DNA from: Flavobacterium gilvum
GTDB lineage: Bacteria > Bacteroidota > Bacteroidia > Flavobacteriales > Flavobacteriaceae
Length of the DNA: 64,000 nt
Assembly (NCBI RefSeq): GCF_001761465.1
Contig: NZ_CP017479.1
Coordinates: forward strand, 1,674,001-1,738,000
Direction of reading: 5' to 3'
Shown: positions 19,139-64,000 of the stretch, piece after piece
Position numbering within the stretch: the first letter of the stretch is position 1
Layout: each line of letters begins with the position of its first letter
The notes under the pieces: generated by a model
What the model saw: only the letters and a program-made list of their open reading frames with translations
The model's database searches: none
What the model was told of the DNA's origin: nothing
Program-made: the position numbers and the translations under genes

Positions 19139-19283
19139 CGGGCCTCATCCAGCTGTACATTACAAGCTTTTTGTCGTAACTATTTTTTTCTAAGAACAAG
19201 AAAGAGCTTCTTTCAGTCGCTTTTCTGGTTCAAGAAAAAATATAGTTTCTCGCAAAAAGGCTTTTCATTTCCATCTGGGGCAG
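19139..19283. repeat. Imperfect palindromic intergenic repeat
   Basis: An outer pair (AAGCTTTTTGTCGTAACTAT and its near-complement ending in GCAAAAAGGCTT) surrounds an inner pair (GAACAAGAAAGAGC / GCTTTTCTGGTTC). The whole can fold into a long hairpin. The head ATCCAGCTGTACATTACAAGC and the tail TTTCCATCTGGGGC resemble the ends of the element at 59124-59192 (ATCCGCTACAATC ... TTTCCACTTCTATCGGGGC). I read both as members of one dispersed flavobacterial repeat family. No coding capacity is seen. Confidence 0.55.
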
Positions 19284-19376
19284 GTGATTTGAGATTGTAG
19301 ATTTATGATTGCAGATTTAAGATTTGTGATTGAAAATCTAAAATCTAAGTTCAAGAATCTAAAATCAAAATATAAT

Positions 19377-26356: not shown

Positions 26357-26626
26357 TTATTTTCTGATATTCAATACTTTGATAATCTCACGATATCTGT
26401 TGATCTCTTTCTTTTTCAAGTAATCCAACAAAGATCTTCTTTTACCTACTAATAGTACCAATGAACGCTCTGTGTTGTAATCGTGACGATTTTTTTTCAA
26501 GTGCTCAGTAAGGTGCGTGATTCTGTGAGTAAATAACGCGATTTGTCCTTCTGCAGATCCAGTGTTTTCTGCTTTTCCTCCGTGTTTAGCGAAGATTTCT
26601 TCTTTAACTTCTTTAGTTAAGTACAT
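26357..26626 (-). CDS. rpsO: 30S ribosomal protein S15
   Basis: This 89-residue S15 binds 16S rRNA in the central domain and nucleates assembly of the platform. The conserved segments TGSAEGQIALFTHRITHLTEHLKKNRHDYNT and LVGKRRSLLDYLKK (residues about 21-70) are present at normal length. It is transcribed just ahead of pnp on the minus strand. Confidence 0.97.
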   Translation of the reverse strand: MYLTKEVKEEIFAKHGGKAENTGSAEGQIALFTHRITHLTEHLKKNRHDYNTERSLVLLVGKRRSLLDYLKKKEINRYREIIKVLNIRK

Positions 26627-26773
26627 TCCAATATTTTTTAAATGATTATTATGTATTCTTACATCTGTTGCAAGATGGGTGCAAAAGTAAAAAATAATTA
26701 TGAATTATGACCCGAAAAAAAATATTTTTATTTTTTGAATCGGCGAAGCAATTATGAATTGTGAATTATTTGT

Positions 26774-59051: not shown

Positions 59052-59400
59052 TTTCTAAGAGGCTAAGAAGCTAAGATTCTAAGTTTTTTGGAGCAGAAAC
59101 ATTTGGTGTTTTCAGGAAACATCGTCCCGCTATCCGCTACAATCTCTTGCGCTGAACCCCAGCGCAGGAGGATTTCCACTTCTATCGGGGCTAAAGACCA
59201 ATAATTTGCTTTTTTGTAATCATCCAAAAAAAGAATACAATACCCGCTAGCGCGAGCGTCCCGCTCGTGAACACAATCTAAAATAATTTAACGATAAATA
59301 AGTAATTTTTTTTCAGGAACAGAAGGATAAATAGTCACGAGCGAGACGCTCGCGCAAGCGTGAAAACTTAGAATCTCAGAATCTTAGAATCTCATAAACT
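59052..59400. repeat. Nested palindromic repeats
   Basis: There are three layers. The outer arms are CTAAG words (59052-59090 and 59363-59400). Inside, 59124-59192 is a compact element with hairpin CTCTTGCGCTG/CAGCGCAGGAG and ends like those of 19139-19283. A GC-rich pair, GCGCGAGCGTCCCGCTCGTGA (59249 on) against CACGAGCGAGACGCTCGCGC (59336 on), forms the third. The region between the acyltransferase and pterin dehydratase genes holds nothing else I can support. Confidence 0.7.
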
Positions 59401-60449: not shown

Positions 60450-61304
60450 ATGAAAAATATCATTACATTATTACTTACCACTTTCTTCTCGATTTCATTA
60501 TTGGCTAATATTTCAAATTCTGAAAAAAACAGTTTGATTAAATTGTACAAAAGTACAAATGGAAGTCAATGGAACATTAAATGGGATTTGGAAAAACCAG
60601 TTTCTACATGGTATGGCGTTAAAATCGTTAATGACAAAGTAGTAGGAATTAATCTTTCAAACAATAATTTGGTGGGAACTTTGCCAGCCGAAGTTTCAGA
60701 ATTAAAAAACTTAGAAGAATTAAATTTATTCAAAAACCAGATTTCTGGAGCAATTCCTCAAAATATCGGGAAATTATCAAATTTAAAAGAATTAAATCTT
60801 TCGTTCAATAAATTGTCAGGGACTATTCCAAGTTCTATTTGCGAGATATCTCATTTGAATTCATTAAAACTTTTCATGAATCAACTTTCGGGAGAATTAC
60901 CAAGCAAAATTGGTAATTTAAAGGAATTGGAAGTGGTTTCTTTGTTTAATAATGAATTATCGGGAGAGCTTCCTGCTTCATTGTACCAACTTAAGAATCT
61001 GAAAGAGTTGATGTTAAATAGTAACAAGTTTTCAGGGAAAATAAGTTGGAATATTGAAAACTTAAGTGCTTTGGAAAATTTAAGTCTTTTTGATAATAAT
61101 ATGCATGGAAACATACCTTATGTTTTGGTCAAAATGAATAATCTGAAAAATGTTAATTTATCTTATAATTCGTTTTCTGGTGCCGTTTCCGAAGCTTTGG
61201 TAGGAAAAGATGATTTTAATCTTACTATGAGAAATGACTCTGGAGTTTCATATCAATTGGAAGTGTCAAATAATGCCAAAGGTGTTTTGGCTGCCGAAGA
61301 ATAA
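60450..61304 (+). CDS. Secreted leucine-rich repeat protein, plant-type repeats
   Basis: This 284-residue protein has a signal peptide (MKNIITLLLTTFFSISLLA). An N-terminal cap with a Trp-rich segment (NGSQWNIKWDLEKPVSTWYG) resembles the LRRNT of plant receptors. About seven 24-residue repeats follow, of the form L-x-x-L-x-x-L-x-L-x-x-N-x-L-S-G-x-(I/L)-P. There is no membrane anchor and no recognisable type IX C-terminal sorting domain. A ligand-binding role outside the cell or in the periplasm is plausible. Confidence 0.85.
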   Translation: MKNIITLLLTTFFSISLLANISNSEKNSLIKLYKSTNGSQWNIKWDLEKPVSTWYGVKIVNDKVVGINLSNNNLVGTLPAEVSELKNLEELNLFKNQISGAIPQNIGKLSNLKELNLSFNKLSGTIPSSICEISHLNSLKLFMNQLSGELPSKIGNLKELEVVSLFNNELSGELPASLYQLKNLKELMLNSNKFSGKISWNIENLSALENLSLFDNNMHGNIPYVLVKMNNLKNVNLSYNSFSGAVSEALVGKDDFNLTMRNDSGVSYQLEVSNNAKGVLAAEE

Positions 61305-61500: not shown

Positions 61501-61531
61501 TTTGGTAGTTAATTATTTTAACTTACTTTTG
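61501..61531 (+). promoter_or_regulatory. Promoter of the susC leader
   Basis: TTTG (61501-61504) and TACTTTTG (61524-61531) are spaced 19 bp, a strong Bacteroidota promoter. It predicts transcription start near 61538, leaving about 430 nt of leader before susC. Confidence 0.7.
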
Positions 61532-61585
61532 TCTATAGAAATAGTAGAGTTTAAAAAAAACGATATTAACACTAAAACAAAAATT

Positions 61586-61672
61586 GTGAAGACAATCAAA
61601 AACATACCTATTTTGATACTGCAAGAATCTTTCTCATTCGGCACTCTTCGTCGAATGTGTTGTTGCTGTTAA
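61586..61672 (+). CDS. Polycysteine leader peptide 1 (ends LRRMCCCC)
   Basis: A GTG-started frame of 28 codons begins MKTIKNIPILILQ and ends SFGTLRRMCCCC followed directly by TAA. Four Cys codons (TGT TGT TGC TGT, 61658-61669) precede the stop. Just before them CATTCG (61635-61640) and CGAATG (61652-61657) can pair as a hairpin inside the frame. An A-rich stretch lies upstream of the GTG, in Bacteroidota style. It lies about 50 nt into the leader of the susC transcript. I infer a regulatory peptide, not a structural protein. Confidence 0.6.
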   Translation: MKTIKNIPILILQESFSFGTLRRMCCCC

Positions 61673-61810
61673 TGTCTTCAATCGATACCCTCTCTTTTTT
61701 GTAATTTTCAGTTTATAAATATTTTATTCGATAATAAATTATTTAATAAGTCTGGCATGTGATTTTTGGAGAATACTAAATCAAGTAATAATTCTAATTA
61801 AAATGATAAA

Positions 61811-61843
61811 ATGGAAAAACGAATGTGTTGTAGTTGCAAATAA
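61811..61843 (+). CDS. Polycysteine leader peptide 2 (MEKRMCCSCK)
   Basis: An ATG-started ten-codon frame encodes MEKRMCCSCK then TAA. It repeats the R-M-C-C-x-C ending of the first leader frame, and the DNA CGAATGTGTTG is identical in both (61652 and 61820). It lies 139 bases downstream of the first, directly before a hairpin at 61851-61876. Cysteine codons at the end of both suggest that charged tRNA-Cys is being sensed. Confidence 0.5.
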   Translation: MEKRMCCSCK

Positions 61844-61850
61844 AAAAAAA

Positions 61851-61876
61851 GCCATTTCTGCGGCAACAGAAATGGC
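61851..61876 (+). promoter_or_regulatory. Hairpin in the susC leader
   Basis: GCCATTTCTG (61851-61860) and CAGAAATGGC (61867-61876) make a ten-pair stem with a six-base loop. On the plus strand it is flanked by A runs, not T runs, so it is not a standard terminator for susC. On the minus strand T runs flank it. It lies eight bases after the second leader frame. Confidence 0.7.
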
Positions 61877-61967
61877 AGGCTTAAAAAAAAATGTTATCGT
61901 TAAACGGAAATGAAAATTGATAGAAATCAGTTTTCAAGCTCCTTATTTATTAAACCAAAGCAAAGTA

Positions 61968-64000
61968 ATGAAAAAAATATTATATAATCTTTTCTGGCTT
62001 GGCATTTTTCTGGTTTCAGCCGGAATTTATGCCCAAAACACGAAGCCACTTATCCAGTCTAAACTAGACGGAACAGTGGTAAACAAAATAACAAGTTTAC
62101 CTGTTTCTGGAGCTACAGTAACTATCAAAGGAACCACGCACGCAGTGGTAACCGATTCTGAAGGTAAATTTTATTTTCAAACGGGACAAAAATTTCCCTA
62201 TACCTTAGTTATAACTTATGTGGGCTTTAAAAAAACAGAATACATTGCAGATGGAAGTCCGGTTTTCATCAGTTTAGAAGAAGATCTTCAGGAGCTCAAC
62301 GGACTGGTGGTTGTGGGTTATGGTTCCCAAAAAAGGAAAGATATTACAGGAGCCATTGCATCAGTTCCGAAAGCAAATTTAAATCAGGTTACTTCATCTG
62401 CCGATAATTTATTGAGAGGAGCCGTGCCTGGAGTTGTGGTTACACAAAGTTCCGGACGACCTGGAGCTACTTCGAGTGTTCGAATCCGTGGCGGAAGTTC
62501 GATTACGGCAGGTAATGAACCTCTTTATGTTATTGATGGTGTATTAATTTATAATGACAACAACAATGGAACTGCAGGCGTGTCAAATGCGGGAGCTGGA
62601 GTCAATGTATTGTCAACTATCAGTCCTGGTGATATTGAGTCTATCGAAGTATTGAAAGACGCATCGGCGACGGCTATTTATGGTTCGCGTGGGGCGAATG
62701 GGGTAGTACTCATTACAACCAAAAAAGGGATCAAAGGTCAAGATATTATTTCCTACCAAGGTTATATAGGGTTTCAACAGGTTTCCAAAAAATTAGATTT
62801 GTTGAATGCCAGTGAATGGGCAAGTTTACGTAATGATGTTCAGGCGAGCATTGGTCAGGCTCCTTCTTTTTCGCCAGCACAAATCGAAGCTCTTAAAACT
62901 TCGGGAGATTATGATTGGCAGTCTGCTGCTTTTAGAACTGCTCCGGTTCAAAATCACCAATTGACATTTTCTGGGGGTGACGATCGTTCGAGATATGCCG
63001 TTTCTGCGGGCTATTTTGATCAGGACGGAGTTATTATTGCGACTGATTTCAAAAGAATTTCACTTCGCGCCAATTACGAACGAAATTATTCTCAAAATTT
63101 CAAATTTGGAGTAAATGCCAATTATAGTAATTCGATTTCAAACGGTATTGGAATGAATGGAGGTAATGGTGGAGGAAGAAATCCTAATCCATTGTCTGGT
63201 GTTTTGTATCAACCTCCTGTGGTTCCAATTAGAAATGCCGACGGCTCTTATAATTTGACCAATAATCCTTATGCAACTGCGGTTAATGGAATAATAACCA
63301 ACCCAATTAATGATTTGGAAAACACTACCAATGAGACTAAGATTAATCGAATTTTAACCAGTTTGTTTGGGGAATACAAAATAAACAAAGAAATCACAGC
63401 CAAAGTTTCTGTTAGTGGAGATGTAATTAACACCAAACAAAATTACTATGCTCCATCTACTACCGGAATTGGTGCTGGAACCAAGGGGTTAGCTTCGGTT
63501 GGGGACAGATTGGTAAGCTCGGTATTGAATGAAAACACCTTGAATTACAACACTCGTTTTGGAGAAAATCATAAGTTTTCTGCTTTGGCAGGATATACAC
63601 TTCAATATACACAAGGTGAGGTTGTCAATGCAGGTGCCAATTATTTTGTAAATGATGCTGTAGAATACAACTCTTTACAAGATGGTACGGCCGTAAAACC
63701 GTACAGTGAGGCATTCGAAAGTGTATTGAAATCGTGGCTTGCAAGAGTAAATTATTCTTATGATGGAAAATATAATTTAACAGTTTCGGCGCGTGCCGAT
63801 GGTTCTTCACGATTTGGTTCAGAATCGCTTTGGGGTTATTTCCCATCTGCAGGTTTTTCTTGGAACATCACCGAAGAAGATTTTGCCAAAAACATCAAAG
63901 GCGTAGATGATGCAAAACTTAGATTCAGCGTAGGAACAACCGGTAATCAGGAAATTGGTAATTATCTTTCTTTGGCATCAATTGGTTCTGTTAATTATTC
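61968..64000 (+). CDS. SusC/RagA-family TonB-linked outer membrane protein (cut by window edge)
   Basis: A frame begins with ATG at 61968 and stays open to the end of the window (677 codons seen; the family is usually near 1000 residues). A signal peptide (MKKILYNLFWLGIFLVSAGI) is followed by a carboxypeptidase-regulatory-like domain (DGTVVNKITSLPVSGATVTI). The plug has the hallmark LVVVGYGSQKRKDITGAIASV, GVVVTQSSGRPGATSSVRIRG and YVIDGVL. The start of the barrel follows. SusC proteins import oligosaccharides or peptides with a SusD partner, expected just outside the window. The leader upstream carries two polycysteine frames. Confidence 0.93.
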   Translation, partial: MKKILYNLFWLGIFLVSAGIYAQNTKPLIQSKLDGTVVNKITSLPVSGATVTIKGTTHAVVTDSEGKFYFQTGQKFPYTLVITYVGFKKTEYIADGSPVFISLEEDLQELNGLVVVGYGSQKRKDITGAIASVPKANLNQVTSSADNLLRGAVPGVVVTQSSGRPGATSSVRIRGGSSITAGNEPLYVIDGVLIYNDNNNGTAGVSNAGAGVNVLSTISPGDIESIEVLKDASATAIYGSRGANGVVLITTKKGIKGQDIISYQGYIGFQQVSKKLDLLNASEWASLRNDVQASIGQAPSFSPAQIEALKTSGDYDWQSAAFRTAPVQNHQLTFSGGDDRSRYAVSAGYFDQDGVIIATDFKRISLRANYERNYSQNFKFGVNANYSNSISNGIGMNGGNGGGRNPNPLSGVLYQPPVVPIRNADGSYNLTNNPYATAVNGIITNPINDLENTTNETKINRILTSLFGEYKINKEITAKVSVSGDVINTKQNYYAPSTTGIGAGTKGLASVGDRLVSSVLNENTLNYNTRFGENHKFSALAGYTLQYTQGEVVNAGANYFVNDAVEYNSLQDGTAVKPYSEAFESVLKSWLARVNYSYDGKYNLTVSARADGSSRFGSESLWGYFPSAGFSWNITEEDFAKNIKGVDDAKLRFSVGTTGNQEIGNYLSLASIGSVNY

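Follow-up and report, generated by a model that had tools for sequence, protein, structure and literature searches.

The leader ahead of susC in Flavobacterium gilvum probably senses cysteine by way of the ribosome and serves an operon that scavenges sulfur. In the window, the whole 64,000-nt stretch of DNA that was analysed, this leader occupies approximately 430 nt of the + strand between a promoter of the Bacteroidota type (61501-61531) and susC, which encodes a TonB-linked outer membrane receptor (61968-63998, extending beyond the window end). The promoter was predicted by eye; TTTG at 61501-61504 and TACTTTTG at 61524-61531, with a spacer of 19, match the Bacteroidota -33/-7 consensus, and the -7 part is conserved among relatives. 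A sigma-70 scan, which does not cover this promoter type, returned no + strand site. Directly 3' of the -7 box, at the predicted transcript start, lies an imperfect, operator-like palindrome, CTATAGAAATAGTAG (61533-61547). The first short frame, uORF1 (61586-61672), begins with GTG 55 nt 3' of the end of the -7 box, approximately 45-50 nt into the predicted transcript, and runs for 28 codons to the TAA at 61672; its peptide, VKTIKNIPILILQESFSFGTLRRMCCCC, ends M-C-C-C-C-stop, with the Cys codons TGT TGT TGC TGT read at 61658-61669. The second frame, uORF2 (61811-61843, ATG at 61811 to TAA at 61843), has ten codons reading MEKRMCCSCK-stop. Both frames, the longer one ending RMCCCC, had been claimed in the earlier note and were read in the sequence as described. 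No Rfam match above the gathering score fell in the susC leader (four in the window), and an NCBIfam search with the 28-residue uORF1 peptide gave no match. Elsewhere in the window, all on the - strand, Rfam matches included two Flavo-1 RNAs together with an S15-Flavobacteria ribosomal protein leader (59119-59196, 19142-19285 and 26624-26689).

Comparison with relatives indicates that uORF1 and uORF2 are not chance: both are conserved as coding units, and their Cys codons are constrained. The relatives were the best 80 of 157 loci related by SusC protein, nearly all named Flavobacterium, which with the window made 81 loci; one that carries the leader is the F. johnsoniae CI04 locus (L018). When 620 nt of upstream sequence was taken, a uORF1 ending in a Cys cluster was present in 80/80 loci with enough sequence (L076, in which a contig end cuts the upstream part, was excluded from this count); in 77 of the 80 it ran for 28 codons after a TTG or GTG start was included, and in three (L051, L057, L068) it had 29 codons. 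A Cys-rich uORF2 stood just 5' of hairpin A in 81/81 loci. Its last four residues were CCCK in 54 of the 81, and of 57 distinct uORF2 sequences 56 had Cys at position -3 and 53 had it at position -2. For uORF1, 119 distinct sequences were pooled, chosen for an upstream TAGTNG motif and for three or more Cys among the five final residues; seven were dropped (four with 29 codons, three with 27) and 112 were analysed. Codons 25, 27 and 28 were Cys in 112, 111 and 110 of these 112 sequences, which share descent so that the counts are not independent events, and codon 26 was variable. TGC and TGT swapped freely at the three Cys positions (72/40, 20/91 and 46/64, respectively), and variation rose from the first to the third codon position (0.109, 0.147 and 0.204). 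The Cys residues were held, third bases were free, and 40% of one-base codon differences were synonymous in frame compared with 20% and 33% out of frame. The start codon was TTG in 93 sequences, GTG in 19 and ATG in none. The inner ATG before the Cys codons was conserved in 111/112, and uORF1 may alternatively be translated from it.

Two narrower readings of the frames were tried and rejected. A five-codon MCxCC-stop minigene as the sole real frame arose from upstream sequence taken only to 420 nt; the long uORF1 is preferred because the 28-codon TTG/GTG frame is conserved at 620 nt. As a search pattern, MCxCC-stop gave 66 matches in 150 genomes compared with 10 for the reversed pattern, and 12 of 20 fetched stretches were without the leader, showing that chance matches occur. 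The DNA word said to be shared by the two frames, CGAATGTGTTG, is indeed in both (61652-61662 and 61820-61830), but it is not conserved in relatives, most of which end YMCFCC in uORF1 and MQSCCCK in uORF2. The word CGNATGTGYTGY occurs at four places in the genome, the two leader frames and two sites inside long ORFs. Rare as it is, it is lost in relatives while the Cys codons persist, and it was set aside as a functional feature. The expectation that RMCC endings would recur upstream of related susC genes likewise stood for the leader, which recurs, but not for RMCC itself, which is confined to part of the relatives.

The operon behind the leader, read from the same genome, consists of susC, susD, two sulfatase genes, a fatty-acid-hydroxylase-like gene and a rhodanese-thioredoxin gene (L005). 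Two leucine-rich-repeat proteins flank it (window 60450-61304 and L005:13828-14655). Approximately 18 to 22 kb beyond susC, on its downstream side, lies an encapsulin shell with a cysteine desulfurase cargo (L006); the two proteins are approximately 90% and 60-68% identical to proteins of relatives that NCBIfam names family 2A. The same region carries a formylglycine-generating enzyme (FGE), the type of enzyme that activates sulfatases, and a Cons_hypoth698 transporter. The guess that the imported substrate is sulfur-related is thus well supported by the sulfatases in the operon, by the encapsulin-desulfurase and FGE genes nearby and by sulfur genes behind the same leader elsewhere. The latter were located with a sequence-only model (A1, R1) covering the stretch from promoter to uORF1. 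With a cutoff of E <= 0.001, this uORF1 leader model had matches in 70 of 299 Flavobacterium genomes, and in the genome of the window the susC leader was the sole strong match, four others having E values of 0.2 to 4. Strong matches numbered 105 (E <= 2.1e-18), one of them at a contig end, and the other 104 were fetched. The first recognised gene behind these 104 leaders was a SusC at least 60% identical in 61, 40-59% identical in 12 and less than 40% identical in 6; it was a sulfatase in 12, cysE in 9, an encapsulin shell in 2 and metY in 1, with none recognised in 1. A sulfatase, cysE, cysK, encapsulin/desulfurase or metY gene was on the same strand in 96/104 stretches, and the other eight comprised five SusCD-amidohydrolase loci, L229 and two stretches ending at a contig end (L266, L283). 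In the five (L239, L241, L249, L262, L263), the strong leader precedes SusCD and an amidohydrolase (Amidohydro_3) with no sulfur gene in the stretch; such loci possibly serve a new sulfur source. Five SusC-sulfatase stretches passed over by the leader pattern had the leader in 5/5 on re-reading. Two relatives carry three leaders each within approximately 20-35 kb, each before another sulfur operon (L118-L122).

The uORF1 leader class appears so far only in Flavobacterium. In a set of 199 Flavobacteriaceae genomes, with close to one genome from each genus, R1 matched strongly only in the two Flavobacterium; of 20 weak matches in other genera (E 1e-4 to 0.008), nine were inspected and had no leader, and the rest were taken as chance. 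Across 296 genomes of the order, matches at E <= 1e-5 were in 1 of 90 genera, in searches whose filters, as in all those over more than 40 genomes, were stricter, so that distant leaders may escape. From many cysE loci the best were taken, representing 29 other genera; none had the leader, and two had a loosely Cys-rich frame.

The same genome also has leaders of a more familiar kind. Upstream of its metY (- strand, L191:16288-16565, C1:435787-436064 of the genome), two short Met/Cys-rich frames stand in tandem, MYNMCCMMWKISAE and MKIMVTIMMCCCMMSMCIPYCYCQKRRI; behind each comes a stem with a T run, the stems being identified by eye. The metY leader in L308 is alike by eye, and one metY leader in another genome (L133) is of the uORF1 type. 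The metY leaders of the window's genome look like textbook Met/Cys attenuators, making it likely that the organism reads such codon runs. These leaders bear on whether the Cys-rich tails could act through the nascent peptide, responding to copper, zinc, sulfide or redox state instead of Cys-tRNA supply. Cys clusters do bind metals, and metal-responsive leader peptides exist in other bacteria; yet sulfur genes, not metal genes, lie downstream, codon 26 varies while Cys 25, 27 and 28 hold, and Met/Cys runs with terminators precede metY, so we consider sensing through the nascent peptide unlikely and keep to Cys-tRNA as the probable signal.

Several RNA structures accompany the frames. Hairpin P1 (CATTCGGCACTCTTCGTCGAATG, 61635-61657, + strand) spans uORF1 codons 17-24 and ends on the in-frame ATG right before the Cys codons. 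Its arms read CATTCGG...CGAATG in the clade of the window and TATAACA...TGTTATA in the other clade, in one register. With a structure derived from one of the tested sequences, the covariation score of P1 was 0.427 compared with 0.228 +/- 0.021 in shuffles (0 of 500) and at most 0.162 when the structure was slid, and 87% of cells were paired compared with 77%; for two of five covariation measures the margin over shuffles was not clear (115 and 114 of 500), and a single pair was unpaired in 16 of 25. RNAalifold on 104 leaders returned P1 and a stem CGTT...AACGA. This stem, 3' of uORF1, was found in 52/119 sequences compared with a mean of 2.6 in shuffles; it is real in one clade only and was dropped as a general feature. 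A possible hairpin B, GAAAATTGAT-AGAA-ATCAGTTTTC, was identified by eye at 61912-61935 (+ strand), where relatives have GAGAGTTGA...TCAACTTTC.

Hairpin A (GCCATTTCTG-CGGCAA-CAGAAATGGC, 61851-61876, + strand) is a perfect 10-bp stem 7 nt 3' of the uORF2 stop. It was identical in 80 of 81 loci and lay 5-9 nt 3' of the uORF2 stop in 81/81. A set of 22 distinct versions was chosen by likeness among the strong leaders. Their inner six pairs were mostly kept and their outer pairs often broken; the changes were G-C to A-T at the loop in 2, T-A to T-G in 7 and C-A breaks in 4. The core pattern of hairpin A occurred at 57 sites in 34 of 150 genomes (palindromic double rows merged; control 0), and an R1 match lay no more than 700 nt upstream of at least 48 of the 57. 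A coding reading of the hairpin (apparent peptide AISAATEM...) was rejected on inspection of the sister-class changes, because G-C to A-T and C-G to T-A keep the pair and alter the residue. In several sister classes uORF2 has few or no cysteines (MTKNNHFNYT, MNLTIN, MTQMQQLPS), and the uORF2-hairpin module was absent from the seven cysE/encapsulin loci examined.

Read on the - strand, hairpin A is terminator-like, with a perfect stem followed by T9, and 6-10 A precede the stem on the + strand in 81/81 loci. It could accordingly be the terminator of an antisense RNA begun near the susC start and repressing susC in the manner of the cis-encoded antisense sRNAs of Bacteroides PULs, which a 2016 J. 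Bacteriol. paper is said to report. The susC leader shares with those sRNAs a - strand terminator-like hairpin between promoter and susC, but some sister classes (L249, L263, L277) have an interrupted A tract and an intact stem. No - strand promoter was seen by eye, and the Cys codons would be left unexplained; an antisense origin of hairpin A seems improbable, and we return to ribosome-mediated sensing of cysteine.

On the sense strand, a good intrinsic terminator in the uORF1 end and the next 200 nt was found in 2 of 119 leaders, compared with 1 in one shuffle. A looser scan flagged P1, but its T tract is broken, and no competing or alternative RNA fold able to switch was found in the leader. 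The 150 nt after uORF1 had a C/G ratio of 1.63, compared with 0.91 in 566 upstream stretches that still include leaders. An excess of C over G is frequent at Rho sites; the window lacks it (15 C, 15 G). The earlier reading of the region as an attenuator stands as to the conserved Cys-run frames and the sulfur genes behind them, but no good sense-strand terminator was found near uORF1. Like attenuators of the trp/his type and the metY leaders of the same genome, the susC leader has a short frame, a regulatory codon run and genes for the matching nutrient behind it. The metY leaders have stem-plus-T-run terminators, whereas neither a good terminator nor a competing fold was found for susC; the susC leader is therefore not classed with the trp/his type, although it may work alike.

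We propose that when charged Cys-tRNA is plentiful, ribosomes would reach the end of both uORFs and detach. The leader between the two frames would be untranslated, hairpin A would form, and little susC message or protein would be made. When Cys-tRNA is scarce, ribosomes would stall at uORF1 Cys codons 25-28 and at the Cys near the uORF2 end. The uORF1 stall would avoid an early transcript end, proposed to be Rho-type rather than intrinsic because no good terminator was seen. The uORF2 stall would abut hairpin A and hold it open, a stalled ribosome presumably being able to block it over the spacing of 5-9 nt, and both stalls would raise SusCD and sulfatase output. An increase on Cys-tRNA shortage is the most likely direction of response, given this logic and the metY precedent. 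For the output step, Rho-type early termination would be the first choice and translational control via hairpin A the second. In that second form, a ribosome on uORF2 would open or close hairpin A and the stretch before susC, altering susC translation or re-initiation, and uORF1 would add cysteine sensitivity, a sub-case of cysteine sensing that we regard as possible without favoring it. The fixed place of hairpin A just past the uORF2 stop in 81/81 loci and the lack of a good intrinsic terminator agree with it; however, hairpin A ends approximately 90 nt before susC, so that the start codon is not covered, and in the loci examined uORF1 also stands ahead of cysE and encapsulin genes without the uORF2-hairpin module.

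Taken in its fullest form, cysteine sensing by the ribosome would make the leader a new class, which we put forward tentatively. Two cysteine-reading uORFs in series would act as a two-step gate: the uORF1 stall would let RNA polymerase proceed without an intrinsic terminator being involved, and the uORF2 stall would open a hairpin A that otherwise shuts the susC message. Import of sulfated compounds would then be tied directly to Cys-tRNA charging, and the uORF1 module would have been reused before cysteine-synthesis and encapsulin sulfur genes across Flavobacterium.

The palindrome at the susC transcript start, its word also written CTATAGNATTAGTAG and its site form CTATNNNATTAGTAG, is conserved in leaders of differing operons and suggests a second, promoter-level sulfur control. 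In the same genome it also occurs in the metY-metK gap and, as CTATCTAATTAGTAG, ahead of the FGE gene. A one-mismatch scan of that genome found 15 places compared with 40 in the control, so that context alone supports the palindrome; it was discarded as a genome-wide regulon marker, and a transcription-factor regulon is at most a lead. Of the one-mismatch places, the only sensible ones were susC and the metY-metK gap, and an exact but loose pattern gave the FGE site and sites inside ORFs. Ahead of the FGE gene (L006:4353-4500), a -7-like box and CTATCTAATTAGTAG are followed by a long stem and a T run (CATCAGTAAAA..TTTTACTGATG-TTTGTTTTTT), and no Cys frame was seen there by eye. A regulator of the Rrf2 family, to which the Bacillus cysteine regulator CymR also belongs, is encoded in the sulfate-assimilation cluster of the genome.

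A weak SusCD class (SusC 27-28% identical; 19 loci, L211-L224, L227, L230, L307, L309 and L310) separates these elements. A long Cys-ended uORF1 from ATG was present in 4/19 loci, no Cys-ended uORF1 was found within 190 nt in 10/19, and the frame was short or shifted in 5. The palindrome is kept and uORF2 is often MKKRMCCR-like; hairpin A was found in 17/19, with the loop changed and the stem mostly kept. With uORF1 degenerate and both other elements retained, the palindrome and hairpin A may be older or longer-lasting than the cysteine codons, which they may predate or outlive. These copies, most of which keep palindrome and hairpin, together with the Rrf2-family regulator in the genome's own sulfur cluster, would fit a view in which the Cys frames are chance or remnants and palindrome and regulator alone control the operon. 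That view is very improbable, with the frames kept in 80/80 (uORF1) and 81/81 (uORF2) closer loci and the Cys of uORF1 held while third bases are free; cysteine sensing through the frames remains the preferred reading.

Polycysteine leaderless short ORFs were reportedly described by Canestrari et al. in 2020 as cysteine-responsive attenuators in mycobacteria. In M. tuberculosis, six polycysteine frames are predicted to control the gene behind them according to how much cysteine is available (PMC9094748). The Flavobacterium leader is alike in its conserved short Cys-run frames ahead of genes and in cysteine supply as the proposed signal. However, the mycobacterial frames are leaderless, whereas leaderless translation of uORF1 is unlikely given its distance from the -7 box and the predicted transcript start; the Flavobacterium leader differs further in its TTG/GTG starts, two serial frames, hairpins P1 and A and SusCD/sulfatase operons. 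Common descent of the two is not expected. The peptides are too short for a comparison by descent, and the leader model matched Flavobacterium only. Within the genus, F. psychrophilum has given hints of leader peptides ahead of operons for amino-acid biosynthesis, in a text whose passages considered here name neither cysteine frames nor a SusCD or sulfatase operon (PMC9723704). Short frames lying in long 5' UTRs are mentioned in a map of Bacteroides thetaiotaomicron. A Synechococcus Family-2A encapsulin with cysteine desulfurase is raised by sulfur starvation (PMC8049743). The same shell and cargo families lie behind the leader in other Flavobacterium, and close relatives of them lie 18 kb from the susC of the window; the Synechococcus system is cyanobacterial, and a leader peptide is not mentioned in the passages considered. 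The earlier note knew of no polycysteine leader described ahead of susC in Bacteroidota, and no polycysteine leader in Bacteroidota was found in the open-licence literature, represented mostly by titles and the starts of abstracts.

SusCD systems are usually regarded as induced by the compound they import. The leader described here points to a Flavobacterium SusCD class governed by the cell's own cysteine status. Such control would make sulfatase-bearing SusCD loci sulfur scavengers, not carbon feeders, and would offer a codon-level, directly testable case of leader-peptide nutrient sensing in Bacteroidota.
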